Positions 25,460 through 30,884 of a stretch of 64,000 nucleotides of DNA are shown here, piece after piece. Position 1 is the stretch's first letter. Every line of letters starts with the position of its first letter. The translations under genes were made by a program, and so were the position numbers. The notes beneath the pieces are model-generated. The model was not told the DNA's origin. It searched no databases and saw only the letters and a list, made by a program, of their open reading frames with translations. The stretch is from Thiobacillus denitrificans (lineage in GTDB: Bacteria > Pseudomonadota > Gammaproteobacteria > Burkholderiales > Thiobacillaceae): the NCBI RefSeq assembly GCF_001530125.1, contig NZ_LDUG01000048.1:146047-210046 (forward strand), in the 5' to 3' direction.

Positions 25460-28459
25460 TTATTTTTTCGCGGTGCGCCGCAGGCGGTTCAGCAGTCGGC
25501 GCGCCAGTTCGCCGAACAACTCGGTCTGCGTCGGGTGCGGGAAGATTGCCTTGGCGACCTGGGTCAGCGTCATCTCGCCCGCCACCATCATCACGCCGAT
25601 ACCGATCAGGGTGTCGGTGTGGTCGGCGAGGTAGTGCACGCCGATGATGCGGCCGGTGGCCTTGTCGGCCACCAGCTTGATCATGCCTTCAGTTTCGCCG
25701 GTGATCATCGCCTTGGCGTCGATGCTCATCGGCATCTTGGCCTCCACCGCGTCGATTCCCTTTGCCTTCGCCTGCGTCACGGACAGGCCGACGAAGCCGG
25801 CCTGTGGGCGCGAGAAGGTGACGCCGCAGTCGCGGTCCTGGTCGTATTCGGATGCGTGCCCCAGCAGGTTGTTTGCAGCGACGCGGCCCTGGGTGGCGGC
25901 GGTGTGGGCAAGCATGTATCCGCCGATCACGTCGCCCACTGCGTAGATGTTCGCCGCGCTGGTCTGGCAGCGCGCGTTGACCTTGATCGCCGCGCCGTCG
26001 AGCTCGACGCCGACCTTGTCCAGGTTCAGCTTGCTGGTGTCGGGGCGCTTGCCGGTGGCCATCAGGATGACGTCGCAGTCGAACACCGACTCGACGCCTT
26101 CCTTGTTGGCGTAGCGCAGCTTCATCGCGCCGGGCTTGCCGCTGGCTTCCTTGATGTCAGCGTTGGTAACGACGGTTATTTCCTTCTCCAGCGAGGCGAT
26201 CAGCGTTTTACCAATTTCCTCCTCGATTTCGGCGAGGATGCGCTCGTGGCGCTCCAGCATCAGCACTTCGGTGCCGAAGTCGCGGAAGATCTGCGCCATC
26301 TCGACACCGATGACGCCGCCGCCGACGATGCCGAGTTTCTTCGGCGGGCTGGCGAGGTTCCAGATGGTGTCGGAGGTGACCACGCCGCCGGTCGCCAGGT
26401 TTTCGCGCGCGCCGGGAATCGGCGGCATGAAGGAGGGGGCGCCCGTTGCAATAACCGCCGCGCCGAAGCTGACGGTGTACGGCTCGCCCTCGACCGGGGT
26501 GATCTTCAGCGTGTGGGCGTCGACGAATTCGCCGTAGCCTTCGCGCACGTCGATCTTCATGCCCTTGTCTGCCTTCAGCGCCATCTCGCCGCGGCTCGTC
26601 TGCACCCAGCGGCGGTGCTTCTCGACCTGTTCCCAGTTGAGCTTCGGCGTGTTGGTGCCGTCGACGCCCATCTCGGCATCGTGCGCGCGGTTGCGGATGA
26701 CGTCCGCCGCGGCGCGCCAGGCCTTGGACGGGATGCAGCCGCGCCACAGGCATTCGCCGCCGGGGAAGGGCTCATTGTTGACCATCATGACACGGACGCC
26801 ATGGTCGGCGAGGTCGCGCGCGCAGTCCTCGCCGCCAGGGCCGCCGCCGACGACGACGACCGGGAAGTCCCAATTACCCTCGGGGATGGGCGACAGCGGC
26901 GCGCTGGTGGTGGTTGCGCCGGCGACGGCTTCAGCTGCCGCCGCTCCACCCGACATCCAGGCTTCGGGCGCTTCGATGGTCTGCTTCAGCGTGGCCAGAT
27001 ACAGCGCCACGTCGGCACCGTTCAGCACGCGGTGGTCGCCGGTAATGGTGAAGGGTGTGCCCTGCGGGCCATTCGCTGCAATCGCCAGGATCGCGGCGAT
27101 GCCGGGGGTGGGGATCGCGGTGAAGTGCGACACGCCCAGCATGCCCATGTTGGAGATGGTGAAGGTGGGGTTGGAATATTCGGCGGGTGCCAGCTTGCGC
27201 ACGCGGGCGCGCTCGACCAGACCGGTCCAGTCGGCCTGCAGCGCTTCCAGCGGTTTCTTCTCGATGCCATGCAGGATCGGCACCACCAGGCCGCCGTCGT
27301 TCGACATCACGGCGACGCCGAAGTCGTGGTTCGTGCGCTCGACCAGCTTGTCGACCGGCTGGTAGGCCCAGTTCATGCGCGGGAATTTCGCCATCGCCAC
27401 TGAACAGGCCTTGGCGATCGCCACCGTGACCGAAACCTTCTTCGCCTTGGCGGCGGCGGTCAGTGCGGCGGTGTTGATGTTCATCGTGACGTTGAAGGTC
27501 GGCAGCGTGAGCGAGGCGGTCATCGCGTGGCTCACCGCCTTTTCCATTGAGGTCATTTTGCGACCCTGGCCCGGCACGTCGACCTGCGGCAACGAGTGCG
27601 CGACCTCCTGCATCGACGGGCGCGCGCGCGCCACATCGGCGGCGACGATCATGCCGGACGGGCCGGTGCCGGCGAGGCCGCTGAGGTTCACCCCCAGCTG
27701 CGCCGCCACCTTGCGCGCATAGGGGCTGGCCTGGCGGCCTTGCGGACGGCCCACCGGCGGCAGGGTGCCGGCGGCGGACACCTGTACGGGTGCGGCCTTC
27801 GGCATGGGGATGTGTGCCGGCCTGTCGGCCGCAGGCGGTGCGACCTTGTGCGTGTCCTTGACCTTGTGGTCGGCGCTGATGATGACGCCGGTGTCGTTGG
27901 CCTTGGAGGCGTCGTCGACGATGAAGCCCATCGGGTGGCCGACCTCGACCACGCTGCCGATGTCGGCGATGGGGCCGGAGAGGAAGCCGTCCTGGAATAC
28001 CTCGACGTCCATGATGGCCTTGTCGGTTTCCACCGTGGCGACGATGTCGCCGCGCTTGATCGCATCACCCGGCTGTTTTTCCCAGGTGACGACGACGCCT
28101 TCGGTCATGGTGTCCGACAGCTGCGGCATCACGATCGGCGTGCCGGCATGGTGCGGAATCATTTCGGTCTGCGCCTGTTCCGCCACCACTTCGTCGGCGG
28201 CGATTGCCACGTCGCCTGCGGTATCGGTGATGTAGCCGAGCGCGGCGCCGACGGCGATGGTCGCGCCGACGTCAGCCAGCGGGCCGGCCAGATAGCCGGC
28301 CTTGAACACTTCGACGTCCATGATGGCCTTGTCGGTCTCGACCGTGGCGACGATGTCGCCGCGCTCGACCTTATCGCCGGCCTGCTTTTCCCAGGTGACG
28401 ACCACGCCCTCGGTCATGGTGTCCGAGAGCTGCGGCATCGTGATGGCGTAATGATTCAT
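25460..28459 (-). CDS. Fused pyruvate dehydrogenase E2-E3 (acetyltransferase plus lipoamide dehydrogenase)
   Basis: A 999-residue fusion of two pyruvate dehydrogenase components. In order: lipoyl domain 1 (lipoyl Lys 44 in ETDKAIMD), lipoyl domain 2 (Lys 147), Ala/Pro linker, E1/E3-binding domain (ASPYARKVAAQLGV, about 245-278), acetyltransferase domain (about 300-500), Ala-rich linker (502-530), then a complete E3 flavoprotein (about 532-999) with VVVVGGGPGG, redox pair C570/C575 in GGECLWRGCIPSK, NAD site IVGGGVIGVE and C-terminal HPTQTE. The E2 motif reads HRVLNG instead of HRxxDG. One uninterrupted frame covers both parts. The start lacks a canonical ribosome site because a repeat occupies that place. 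E1 genes lie upstream. Confidence 0.93.
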   Translation of the reverse strand: MNHYAITMPQLSDTMTEGVVVTWEKQAGDKVERGDIVATVETDKAIMDVEVFKAGYLAGPLADVGATIAVGAALGYITDTAGDVAIAADEVVAEQAQTEMIPHHAGTPIVMPQLSDTMTEGVVVTWEKQPGDAIKRGDIVATVETDKAIMDVEVFQDGFLSGPIADIGSVVEVGHPMGFIVDDASKANDTGVIISADHKVKDTHKVAPPAADRPAHIPMPKAAPVQVSAAGTLPPVGRPQGRQASPYARKVAAQLGVNLSGLAGTGPSGMIVAADVARARPSMQEVAHSLPQVDVPGQGRKMTSMEKAVSHAMTASLTLPTFNVTMNINTAALTAAAKAKKVSVTVAIAKACSVAMAKFPRMNWAYQPVDKLVERTNHDFGVAVMSNDGGLVVPILHGIEKKPLEALQADWTGLVERARVRKLAPAEYSNPTFTISNMGMLGVSHFTAIPTPGIAAILAIAANGPQGTPFTITGDHRVLNGADVALYLATLKQTIEAPEAWMSGGAAAAEAVAGATTTSAPLSPIPEGNWDFPVVVVGGGPGGEDCARDLADHGVRVMMVNNEPFPGGECLWRGCIPSKAWRAAADVIRNRAHDAEMGVDGTNTPKLNWEQVEKHRRWVQTSRGEMALKADKGMKIDVREGYGEFVDAHTLKITPVEGEPYTVSFGAAVIATGAPSFMPPIPGARENLATGGVVTSDTIWNLASPPKKLGIVGGGVIGVEMAQIFRDFGTEVLMLERHERILAEIEEEIGKTLIASLEKEITVVTNADIKEASGKPGAMKLRYANKEGVESVFDCDVILMATGKRPDTSKLNLDKVGVELDGAAIKVNARCQTSAANIYAVGDVIGGYMLAHTAATQGRVAANNLLGHASEYDQDRDCGVTFSRPQAGFVGLSVTQAKAKGIDAVEAKMPMSIDAKAMITGETEGMIKLVADKATGRIIGVHYLADHTDTLIGIGVMMVAGEMTLTQVAKAIFPHPTQTELFGELARRLLNRLRRTAKK

Positions 28460-28488
28460 AGGATTCAGGGGTCAGGATTCAGGGGTCA
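28460..28488. repeat. TCAGGGG repeat, downstream flank of four-helix-bundle gene
   Basis: Two tandem units of GGATTCAGGGGTCA occupy the gap between the four-helix-bundle gene stop and the E2-E3 start. The TGA stop of the former lies within the repeat. A copy in opposite orientation lies at 28865-28890 on the other side of the gene. Confidence 0.75.
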
Positions 28489-28857
28489 GGGAGTTGGCGA
28501 TAGTTTGGCGGTCAGTGCGCTTCTCAGACCGTGCAACATACGGCCAACCTCGTTGGTCTGCTCAAGCAGACAAAGCAACACGGCTTGGGGGATGTAACCC
28601 AGCCGGTGCGCGAGTTCAAGCTGTGTTTCTGCTTCAGCAAGCGAACCCTGTGAAATCGATAGAAAACGCAAGTAATCCTTCGTCGAACTTCTTGCGTGAC
28701 CTTCGGCAATATTGGAGGGGATGGAAACGGCTGCACGCTGGAGTTGATTGGCCAGTGCATAGGTTTCCCTGAAAGGGAAGGATTCAGTAGTTCGGTAGAT
28801 GCTTTCTATCAGTTCCATTGCTATCTGCCAGACTTTCAGATCACGGTAGTTTTTCAC
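28486..28857 (-). CDS. Four-helix bundle protein (23S rRNA intervening-sequence protein family)
   Basis: A 123-residue protein starting at GTG 28857 (KNYRDLKVWQIAMELIESIY), with the family motifs FPFRETYALANQLQRAAVSI, PSNIAEGHAR, YLRFLSISQGSLAEAETQLE and a last helix. Homologues are encoded in 23S rRNA intervening sequences, near diversity-generating retroelements, and as dispersed single genes; their role is unclear. ATG 28893 overlaps the pdhB stop but would translate the flanking repeat. The gene sits inside the pyruvate dehydrogenase operon between inverted TCAGGGG-type repeats, suggesting insertion as a cassette. Confidence 0.85.
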   Translation of the reverse strand: MKNYRDLKVWQIAMELIESIYRTTESFPFRETYALANQLQRAAVSIPSNIAEGHARSSTKDYLRFLSISQGSLAEAETQLELAHRLGYIPQAVLLCLLEQTNEVGRMLHGLRSALTAKLSPTP

Positions 28858-28864
28858 GCCCTGC

Positions 28865-28890
28865 CCCCTGAATCCTGACTCCTGATCCCT
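28865..28890. repeat. TCAGGGG repeat, upstream flank of four-helix-bundle gene
   Basis: CCCCTGAATCCTGACTCCTG and following bases: inverted relative to the copy at 28460-28488. It lies between the pdhB stop and the four-helix-bundle start. Confidence 0.7.
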
Positions 28891-29873
28891 CATGCCTTGC
28901 CAAACAGCTTCAGAACGGCCTTCACCACATCCTCGTGATCCGGGATGGCCGCTTTTTCCAGCGTGTGGTTGTAGGGCTGCGGCACCAGCGCCGAGTGGAC
29001 GCGCACGGGGGCGGCATCCAGTTCGAAGAAGCACTCCTCATTGATGGTGGCGATCACTTCGGCGCCGACCCCGACCGGCGCTTCGTCTTCCTCGGCGATG
29101 ACGACGCGGTGGGTCTTGCTGACCGATTTCCTGATGCCGTCGCGATCCAGCGGCGAGAGCGAATACAGGTCGACGACCTCAGCCGAAATGCCATACTGCT
29201 TGTCGAGGATTTCGGCGGCCTTCAGGCACCAGTGCACCGAGATGTTGTAGCCGAAGAGCGTGACGTCGGTACCGGCGCGCGCGACGTCCGAGCCTTCCAG
29301 CGGATGGAAGTATTCGCCGTCGGGCACTTCGCCCTTCATGTTGTACATGAGTTCGTGTTCGTTGATGAACACCGGGTCGTCGCAGCGGATCGCCGACTTC
29401 AGCAGACCGTAGGCCTGCCTGGGGTTGGACGGCGTCACCACGCGCAGGCCGGCGATGCCCATGAACACCTTTTCCATGCGCGCCGAGTGCTGCGCGCCGA
29501 GCTGGTGCGCAGCACCACCGGCGGAGCGGAACACGCACGGCGCGGTCAGCTGGCCGCCCGACATGTAGCGAATCTTGGCGGCGGAGTTGAACATCTGGTC
29601 CATCGCCAGCCAGGCGAAGTTGACTGACATGATCTCGATGATCGGGCGCACGCCGAGGAAGGAAGCGCCGATGCCGAGACCGGTGAAGCCGCCTTCGGAA
29701 ATTGGCGTGTCCATCACGCGCAGCGGGCCGTATTTTTCGTACAGGCCCTTGGTGGCCTTGTAGGTGCCGCCGGCCACGCCGATGTCTTCGCCCATACAGA
29801 TGACCATCGGGTCACGCGACATTTCTTCGTCGTGGGCGCGTTGGATCGCTTCCCACAGCATGATTTGAGCCAT
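28890..29873 (-). CDS. pdhB: Pyruvate dehydrogenase E1 beta subunit
   Basis: Beta subunit of the heterotetrameric thiamine-diphosphate E1 component. The 327-residue product begins MAQIMLWEAIQRAHDEEM and carries GEDIGVAGGTYKATKGL, TPISEGGFTGLGIGAS and the C-terminal domain with VVDLYSLSPLD. It is close in style to the chloroplast/cyanobacterial type. A GGAAA ribosome site precedes ATG 29873. It lies 9 bases after pdhA. This alpha/beta E1 differs from the single-chain AceE of most gamma- and betaproteobacteria. Confidence 0.94.
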   Translation of the reverse strand: MAQIMLWEAIQRAHDEEMSRDPMVICMGEDIGVAGGTYKATKGLYEKYGPLRVMDTPISEGGFTGLGIGASFLGVRPIIEIMSVNFAWLAMDQMFNSAAKIRYMSGGQLTAPCVFRSAGGAAHQLGAQHSARMEKVFMGIAGLRVVTPSNPRQAYGLLKSAIRCDDPVFINEHELMYNMKGEVPDGEYFHPLEGSDVARAGTDVTLFGYNISVHWCLKAAEILDKQYGISAEVVDLYSLSPLDRDGIRKSVSKTHRVVIAEEDEAPVGVGAEVIATINEECFFELDAAPVRVHSALVPQPYNHTLEKAAIPDHEDVVKAVLKLFGKA

Positions 29874-29882
29874 GTTTTTTCC

Positions 29883-30884
29883 TTAAGCTGCTTTGCCGGT
29901 GAGCCAGGGTTGCTGGCTTTCACGGTCGGCTAGAACGTATTTTTCGAGGTCTTCGACGCGCGGTTCGGGCGATTCCTCGGCGAACTTGGTGACTTCGTTT
30001 TCGATGTAGGCGTCGGTTTCCTTTTCGATCGTCTCGTAGTCGGCCATGGTCATCGCGCCCGCCGTAATCAGACGGTCACGCAGCATGAGGATGGGATCGC
30101 GCTGCTTCCAGACTTCTTCCTCCTCGCGCGAGCGGTAGCCGCGCGAATCGGACATCGAGTGGCCGCGATAGCGGTAGGTCATCAGTTCGAGGAAGAAGGG
30201 GCCGTTGCCCGCGCGTACGTGGTCCACCGCTTTGCGCGCATGCTCGTACACGATGTCGATGTCCTGGCCGTCGCATTCGTCAGCCGGGATGTTGTAGGCG
30301 GCGACGCGCTTGTGCTGGTGCACCACGGCGGTGGAGCGCTCGATCGAGGTGCCGATGCCGTACAGGTTGTTTTCGCACACGAACAGCACCGGCAGTTTCC
30401 ACAGCGCGGCCATGTTCAGGGTTTCGTGGAACACGCCCTGGTTGTTGGCGGCGTCGCCGAGGAAGCAGATGGCGATCTCGTCGCCGCCTTTCAGCTGGAT
30501 CGCCTTGGCGATGCCGGCGGCCAGCGGGAAGGGGCCGCCGACCAGTGCATAGCCGCCCATGAAATGGTGTGCCGCATCAAAGATGTGCATCGAGCCGCCG
30601 CGCCCCTTGGAGGAACCGGTTTCCTTGCCGTACAGCTCGGCCATCACTTCCTTCGGGTCGGCGCCGCACTTGATCGCGTGGACGTGGTCGCGGTAGCCGG
30701 TGATCACGTAATCGTGGCCGGGACGCGCGGCTTCCATCACGCCGTTGCAGCAGGCTTCCTGGCCGGGGTAGAGGTGGAGAAAGCCGCCGATCTTGCGTTC
30801 GATATAGGCCTGATAGCAGCGCTCTTCAAAACGGCGGTGCAGCACCATTTCGCGCAGCACGCGTTTCTTGTCATCAATCTTCAT
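29883..30884 (-). CDS. pdhA: Pyruvate dehydrogenase E1 alpha subunit
   Basis: Alpha subunit of E1, binding thiamine diphosphate. The 333-residue protein has GGSMHIFD, the ThDP motif FLGDAANNQGVFHETLNMAA ending in the NN pair of CENNLYGIG, and the regulatory-loop region YRYRGHSMSDS. ATG 30884 follows an AGGGTAA site. It is the first gene of the pdhA-pdhB-(four-helix bundle)-E2/E3 operon and diverges from an aminopeptidase gene. Confidence 0.94.
   Translation of the reverse strand: MKIDDKKRVLREMVLHRRFEERCYQAYIERKIGGFLHLYPGQEACCNGVMEAARPGHDYVITGYRDHVHAIKCGADPKEVMAELYGKETGSSKGRGGSMHIFDAAHHFMGGYALVGGPFPLAAGIAKAIQLKGGDEIAICFLGDAANNQGVFHETLNMAALWKLPVLFVCENNLYGIGTSIERSTAVVHQHKRVAAYNIPADECDGQDIDIVYEHARKAVDHVRAGNGPFFLELMTYRYRGHSMSDSRGYRSREEEEVWKQRDPILMLRDRLITAGAMTMADYETIEKETDAYIENEVTKFAEESPEPRVEDLEKYVLADRESQQPWLTGKAA

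Follow-up and report, generated by a model that had tools for sequence, protein, structure and literature searches.

In the 2-oxo acid dehydrogenase complexes, lipoamide dehydrogenase (E3, Lpd) docks reversibly on the acyltransferase (E2) and is common to several complexes; E2 forms trimeric cores, and E3 dimerises. Classical pyruvate dehydrogenase (PDH) with an α/β-type E1 keeps E3 separate from its E2 (E2p), a chain of lipoyl domains, peripheral subunit-binding domain (PSBD) and acetyltransferase catalytic domain (CAT). A 64,000-nucleotide stretch of Thiobacillus denitrificans DNA (GCF_001530125.1, contig NZ_LDUG01000048.1, positions 146,047–210,046; in the following, the window) encodes a variation on this machine. 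Downstream of E1α and E1β genes, a single frame reproduces this domain order as far as the acetyltransferase but has E3 covalently attached, and no separate E3 scores above the TIGR01350 cut-off in this genome. The sequences indicate that the product is probably a working single-chain E2p–E3 of an α/β-E1 PDH complex, with an E3 that probably also serves 2-oxoglutarate dehydrogenase (OGDH) in trans.

P64K-type E3s, represented among the matches by 5u25 and P64K entries, likewise combine E3 on one chain with what we take to be a lipoyl domain; they differ from the present protein in presumably lacking both a PSBD and an acetyltransferase. The actinobacterial OdhA is an E1o–E2o chain that relies on the lipoyl groups of E2p and joins a hybrid complex of PDH and 2-oxoglutarate dehydrogenase (PDH/ODH); containing a dimeric as well as a trimeric domain, it closes into a hexamer (PMC10415282, PMC10581250). 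The two systems resemble each other in placing a dimeric and a trimeric component on one chain and in the need of one complex for a part of the other in trans, which for the present system is a proposal. In the OdhA system, the fusion unites E1o with E2o, and what is borrowed is the lipoyl group of E2p; in the present system it unites E2p with E3, and the borrowed part is probably E3. The fused E2–E3 should face the same symmetry problem as OdhA. A paper on Sideroxydans notes that the E1 and E2 genes of OGDH are grouped and that E3 is encoded at another place, which suggests a shared E3 (PMC5178258).

The fused gene (25460–28459, minus strand, as are all features of the window given here) is a single open reading frame (ORF) from ATG to stop, encoding 999 amino acids plus stop without an internal stop codon. 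This agrees with the initial annotation, whose proposed domain order is also recovered by Pfam, with every match above its curated cut-off. Lipoyl domain 1 comprises residues 6–76 (28232–28444; PF00364, with an ETDK motif seen by eye), lipoyl domain 2 residues ~109–181 (27917–28135; a second PF00364 stretch with estimated limits), the PSBD residues 243–276 (27632–27733; PF02817, E3_binding) and the CAT domain with its DHRVLNG motif residues 301–502 (26954–27559; PF00198, 2-oxoacid_dh). The E3-like part, residues 532–991 (25487–26866), was delimited by Pfam, NCBIfam and alignment and contains matches to Pyr_redox_2 (533–858) and Pyr_redox_dim (880–985). Between the two halves, alignment and AlphaFold place the Ala-rich linker at residues ~503–531 (~26867–26953), where it had been proposed; it ends in a conserved IPEGxWD motif, and its residues 505–520 have an AlphaFold pLDDT below 50. 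With E2 and E3 on one chain, the E2:E3 ratio is therefore 1:1, which bears out the fixed stoichiometry claimed at the outset.

A search of the order (Burkholderiales) with the window protein yielded an uninterrupted fused frame in 27 of 300 genomes, that of the window included, at 62–100% identity. Among the candidates scored, which in many genomes were only part of the total, neither AceE nor an E3 above the TIGR01350 cut-off was found in any of these 27 genomes, versus both in 11 of 11 comparison genomes, a set of our own choosing. PF02817 has exactly one match in each of the 27 genomes, inside the fused frame. The E2 of OGDH (E2o) is encoded in 12 of them. In the genome of the window, SucB (L001) adjoins SucA and scores 482.2 and 493.8 bits, above the cut-offs of TIGR01347 and NF004309, and this E2o has no PF02817 match. 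A home-made hidden Markov model (HMM) of the PSBD found the domain in 0 of the 12 E2o, which belong to the families f1, f35 and f9; the controls were 29 of 30 E2o from the class, five of five other E2o and three of three AceF, the one class E2o without a match presumably being L164, which is cut by a contig end. By eye, no lpd was seen beside sucB in the flanks of eight of the 12 genomes, and an Ala/Pro-rich stretch occupies the place where the PSBD would be. This recalls eukaryotic OGDH, which according to the relevant portion of PMC9974300 has an E2o without PSBD but with such a stretch, and for which MRPS36/KGD4 is proposed there as an adaptor; here the feature is bacterial. The same portion states that prokaryotic E2o preserve the PSBD, a view to which the fusion genomes of the order are exceptions. 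In five of the PSBD-less E2o (L122, L125, L126, L128 and L130, from G261, G043, G291, G088 and G201), the would-be PSBD stretch contains a CPPCPPC motif, a possible metal or partner site.

Genomes of the wider class (Gammaproteobacteria) outside the order present a different picture. Of the 79 class genomes with a match to the fused protein, 71 were surveyed, among them G507 with its unfused E2; left out were the genome of the window and G332, G451, G542, G582, G603, G610 and G651, whose genes are split or fragmentary (in the split-looking G582, the E2 piece contains a run of unknown residues). By a tally of hand-typed sets, and with an Lpd threshold of 480 bits set by ourselves, E2o is present in 37 genomes, Lpd in 38 and both in 37; a single genome (G615, 79% complete) has Lpd only. 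Among the candidates scored, in many genomes only part of the total, neither is seen in 33, counting G442, G554 and G649, whose weaker matches of 408–416 bits in frames of 714–719 amino acids touch the 408.8-bit cut-off of TIGR01350. The notion that free Lpd is lost wherever the fusion exists is wrong for the class, since 38 of 71 genomes keep one. The class E2o carries a PSBD in 36 of 36 assessable cases (that of G556 is cut), and lpd lies at most 800 bp downstream of the E2o gene in 36 of 36 mapped cases (G561 is unmapped). Class genomes outside the order have either a sucB with dock together with lpd, or neither. Fisher's test on the PSBD counts, 36:0 versus 0:12, gives 1.4e-11, a figure that is overstated because of kinship, as the losses may be one event. 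One of the genomes with neither, G577, has the fused gene, no Lpd above the cut-off and a second, low-scoring E2 of a different kind (C37:17188–17793, 144.2 bits) in a 442-residue frame with a weak PSBD.

In the proposed working of the fused protein, the lipoyl arms would deliver acetyl groups from E1 to the acetyltransferase, after which the E3 that lies ~25–30 residues behind this domain on the same chain would reoxidise the arms. Because the E2 core is trimeric and E3 dimeric, a closed assembly is to be expected, in which E3 dimers would bridge E2 trimers, the smallest form being a hexamer as in actinobacterial OdhA, the alternative a cage. The lipoyl groups of E2o would most likely be reoxidised in trans by the PDH-bound E3, because in the genome of the window the tethered E3 is, besides MerA, the only full-length relative of TIGR01350 and E2o has no dock. 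A more far-reaching version is put forward tentatively, as somewhat more apt to be wrong than right: Thiobacillus-type bacteria may have welded their one E3 to E2p, and the dock-less OGDH may use it within a joint PDH–OGDH assembly, which would be a second, independent merger, mirroring the actinobacterial one, and would have E3 dimers bridging E2 trimers. More surprising than the fusion itself is the dock-less E2o that accompanies it, and it makes E3 sharing directly testable: a lineage with E3 fused to one E2, next to another complex that has neither a dock nor its own E3 gene, amounts to a natural experiment on E3 sharing.

The alternative that fares best is credible, if on balance unlikely. 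According to it, the fused E3 serves PDH only, the E2o of the order uses MerA, HPxxxE-type proteins of 463–491 amino acids or a PRK06292-type protein, and the loss of the PSBD from E2o is unrelated drift. Several findings that favour it weigh at the same time against service in trans. Only four of the 12 genomes with E2o (G000, G043, G261 and G008) are without an E3-like flavoprotein besides MerA; the other eight have further E3-like proteins. That of G057, of the PRK06292 type, lies above the NCBIfam cut-off for dihydrolipoyl dehydrogenase (NF004939, 666.6 versus 435 bits), those of G167 and G231 are PRK06370-like and below the cut-off, and those of the f35 genomes have HPxxxE-like ends; ten of the 16 extra stretches fetched were scanned. 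PSBD-less E2o (0 of 3 with the domain) also occur in the sister genus g3, which has AceE/AceF and a separate Lpd, so that the loss of the PSBD is not tied to the fusion alone. The 12 genomes represent three families and are not necessarily independent, and tethering is dispensable in some lineages, judging by the free-standing forms of this E3 nested in the tree described below. On the other side stand the same four genomes: at E≤1e-60 the fused E3 is accompanied solely by MerA in G000, G043 (one contig) and G008, and by nothing in G261. MerA has a C-terminal CC motif, presumably serving mercury handling. For these four genomes of the 12, that of the window included, in-trans service by the fused E3 appears nearly forced. 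Three of the f35 flavoproteins (L224, L232 and L234), with CLNRGCVPKK or CLNQGCIPKK motifs and NHPARTEE- or SHPxxxE-type ends, match no NCBIfam family above its cut-off at E≤1e-90 and could act in a different lipoyl system or with E2o.

A second alternative holds that the fused E3 and the PSBD still dock as elsewhere, that fusion merely raises the local concentration and that a free E3 could be recruited; this is improbable. In the 1EBD pair, PSBD and E3 are joined by charged residues. The comparison used its contact residues, which we take to be D344 and E431 in E3 and R135, K153, R156 and K159 in the PSBD, and PSBDs located with the home-made HMM, built from rows found by pattern (31 of 39 fused, 16 of 30 others). 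Canonical Lpds from class genomes have an acidic residue at the position equivalent to E431 in 25 of 30 cases; the 39 fused E3s never do and have S, A, T or N there. HMMER aligns the neighbouring residue, also non-acidic, and in the window protein a Glu follows two residues further along. The Arg equivalent to R156 is present in a single one of the 39 fused PSBDs but in 26 of 29 class E2o, five of five other E2o and three of three AceF. The K153 and K159 equivalents likewise distinguish the fused PSBDs (Pro in 35 of 39, Lys in 0 of 39) from those of E2o. Other residues fit retained docking and thereby speak against its loss: the R135 equivalent is kept in 39 of 39 fused PSBDs, and an Asp equivalent to D344 is commoner in the fused E3s (24 of 39) than in canonical Lpds (only six of 30), contrary to what a loss would produce. 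The K153 and K159 equivalents are not conserved in the three AceF controls either, and the Arg is also absent from the PSBD of PDB 1w4i, presumably archaeal, as well as from G507, the only unfused E2 of the same type in this comparison, so that the change may belong to the type of E2. The argument for lost docking is weakened by the AceF controls and the D344 equivalent; the residues suggest such a loss but are not strong evidence for it.

The initial annotation had asked why the binding domain is kept. A possible answer is that tethering may have replaced the need for non-covalent docking and that the retained PSBD now mainly holds E1, as suggested by the near-absence of the R156-equivalent Arg and by the statement, in the relevant part of a review, that PSBDs bind E1 as well (PMC6270654); this part of the answer is suggestive only. 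A charge zipper between PSBD and E3 is mentioned in the section of PMC9974300 concerned. The unfused one-lipoyl relative in G507 (L144, 1584–2894, minus strand) lies, by eye, near E1α/β ORFs; its PSBD match ends at position 27 of 36 with 30.6 bits, and the Lpd gene of this genome adjoins sucB.

That the C-terminal part is another disulfide reductase, fused by chance, is very improbable. This idea gains from the family models, which also count against the preferred assignment as E2p and lipoamide dehydrogenase: TIGR01350 is the best-scoring model for the E3 part but at 367.7 bits stays below its cut-off of 408.8, none of the 25 models shown passes its own cut-off, and the redox motif reads GECLWRGC versus GVCLNVGC in 1ebd. 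For the E2 part, the best model is TIGR01349 with 282.4 bits, below the cut-off of 445. TIGR01350 is nevertheless the best model for the E3 part, its closest PDB sequence is dihydrolipoamide dehydrogenase (1ebd), and both E2o and an Lpd of at least 480 bits are missing from 33 class genomes. The catalytic residues, too, tell against a chance fusion: in an alignment of 49 sequences (39 chosen for diversity from 261 candidates, and ten added), the CxxxxC pair (C570, C575) and the His–Glu dyad of HPTxxE (H975, E980) are invariant in E3, as are E144, T145, D146 and K147 of lipoyl domain 2 and H476 and N480 of DHRVLNG in E2. In what we take to be the catalytic HxxxDG motif of E2, the His is kept and Asp is replaced by Asn (N480) in all 49 as well as in the unfused E2 of G507. 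By architecture, the E2 part has lipoyl domains with ETDK in both, PSBD and CAT in the order of E2p. The fused protein would work like E2p plus Lpd, though the family models do not certify it, and the term E3-like is used for its C-terminal part. AlphaFold, in a single-chain prediction, yields folded domains (pLDDT 78.9, pTM 0.52) along with low-confidence stretches at 92–103, 196–226, 281–291, 295–298 and 505–520. A shortening of the E2 core by the fusion is unsupported, the unfused E2 of G507 being similarly short (profile positions 7–231 in residues 229–431).

Cleavage of a precursor within the linker into ordinary E2 and E3 is slightly less probable than a chance-fused reductase; the linker is predicted to be disordered and relatives with separate E2 and E3 forms exist, but the junction with its IPEGxWD motif is conserved over wide distances in the 49-sequence alignment. 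A sequencing error, frameshift or misassembly of two genes has next to no probability and is ruled out, like chance, because the same stop-free architecture recurs in genomes of the order (27/300) and the class (60/369), single-contig ones among them.

In the order, the match of G261 to the fused protein stops early, at residue 929, and the next-best long matches contain stop codons, as expected for separate genes. The 79 class genomes (of 369) were matched at E≤1e-85; at least 60 of the 369, the genome of the window included, have E=0 and one stop-free frame of at least 893 amino acids, and among the remaining 19 are additional complete frames, genes truncated at contig ends and, in G507, an unfused E2. 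A separate collection adds named carriers, namely Thiobacillus thioparus DSM 505, Sulfuriferula multivorans and an Acidiferrobacter metagenome-assembled genome; Thermithiobacillus plumbiphilus has an 884-residue form with apparently one lipoyl domain, and the record of Acidithiobacillus ferridurans is partial. The fusion explains unhelpful names in databases, for example 'FAD-dependent oxidoreductase'; elsewhere the protein is listed as 'dihydrolipoamide dehydrogenase' or 'pyruvate dehydrogenase'. No description of an E2–E3 fusion was found in the literature searched, which includes PMC6067878, PMC10892978 and PMC5264521 and leaves out most subscription papers. The fusion is common in genomes and apparently undescribed in the literature searched; its initial characterisation as unusual holds at most for the latter and fails for the genomes, as it is widespread in the class.

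A maximum-likelihood tree, computed by a quick method from 93 E3 sequences (57 fused, 26 free-standing, and ten canonical or MerA), unites the fused E3s with their free-standing relatives in a clade of their own, to the exclusion of canonical Lpd (SH-aLRT 100). It omits L067 and one of 27 free rows, which had no motif match, and several free rows come from short contigs and may be fragments. The free rows are nested within the clade of fused E3s, with nine label changes and clades of 13 (98) and five (96) free rows. One fusion followed by several splits would be the simplest reading of this tree; repeated fusion of canonical Lpd is unsupported by it, within the limits of the quick method. In G685, of the sister genus g3, a free-standing E3 of the fused type (L162, 4969–6444, minus strand) lies at most 5 kb from AceF and from an apparent AceE end recognised by eye. 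This genome also has an Lpd of 502.8 bits, above the TIGR01350 cut-off, and, by the counts, a PSBD-less E2o, for which the free E3 has possibly been kept.

The genes upstream of the fused gene run in the same direction and encode E1β (28890–29873; NF006667, 359.3 versus a cut-off of 321 bits) and E1α (29883–30884; TIGR03182, 413.6 versus 393.85 bits) of PDH, and the α/β type assigned to this E1 from the start is upheld by both cut-offs. The gap between E1β and the fused gene (28460–28890, minus strand) is filled by an ORF for a 23S-rRNA-intervening-sequence protein (PF05635, 134.6 bits) with 35-nucleotide terminal inverted repeats that are 86% complementary. A PF05635-type ORF was recognised by motif in nine of 64 related loci in which E1β was found; in several other related loci the gap between E1β and the fusion is ~430 nucleotides, and in many it is ~90 nucleotides.

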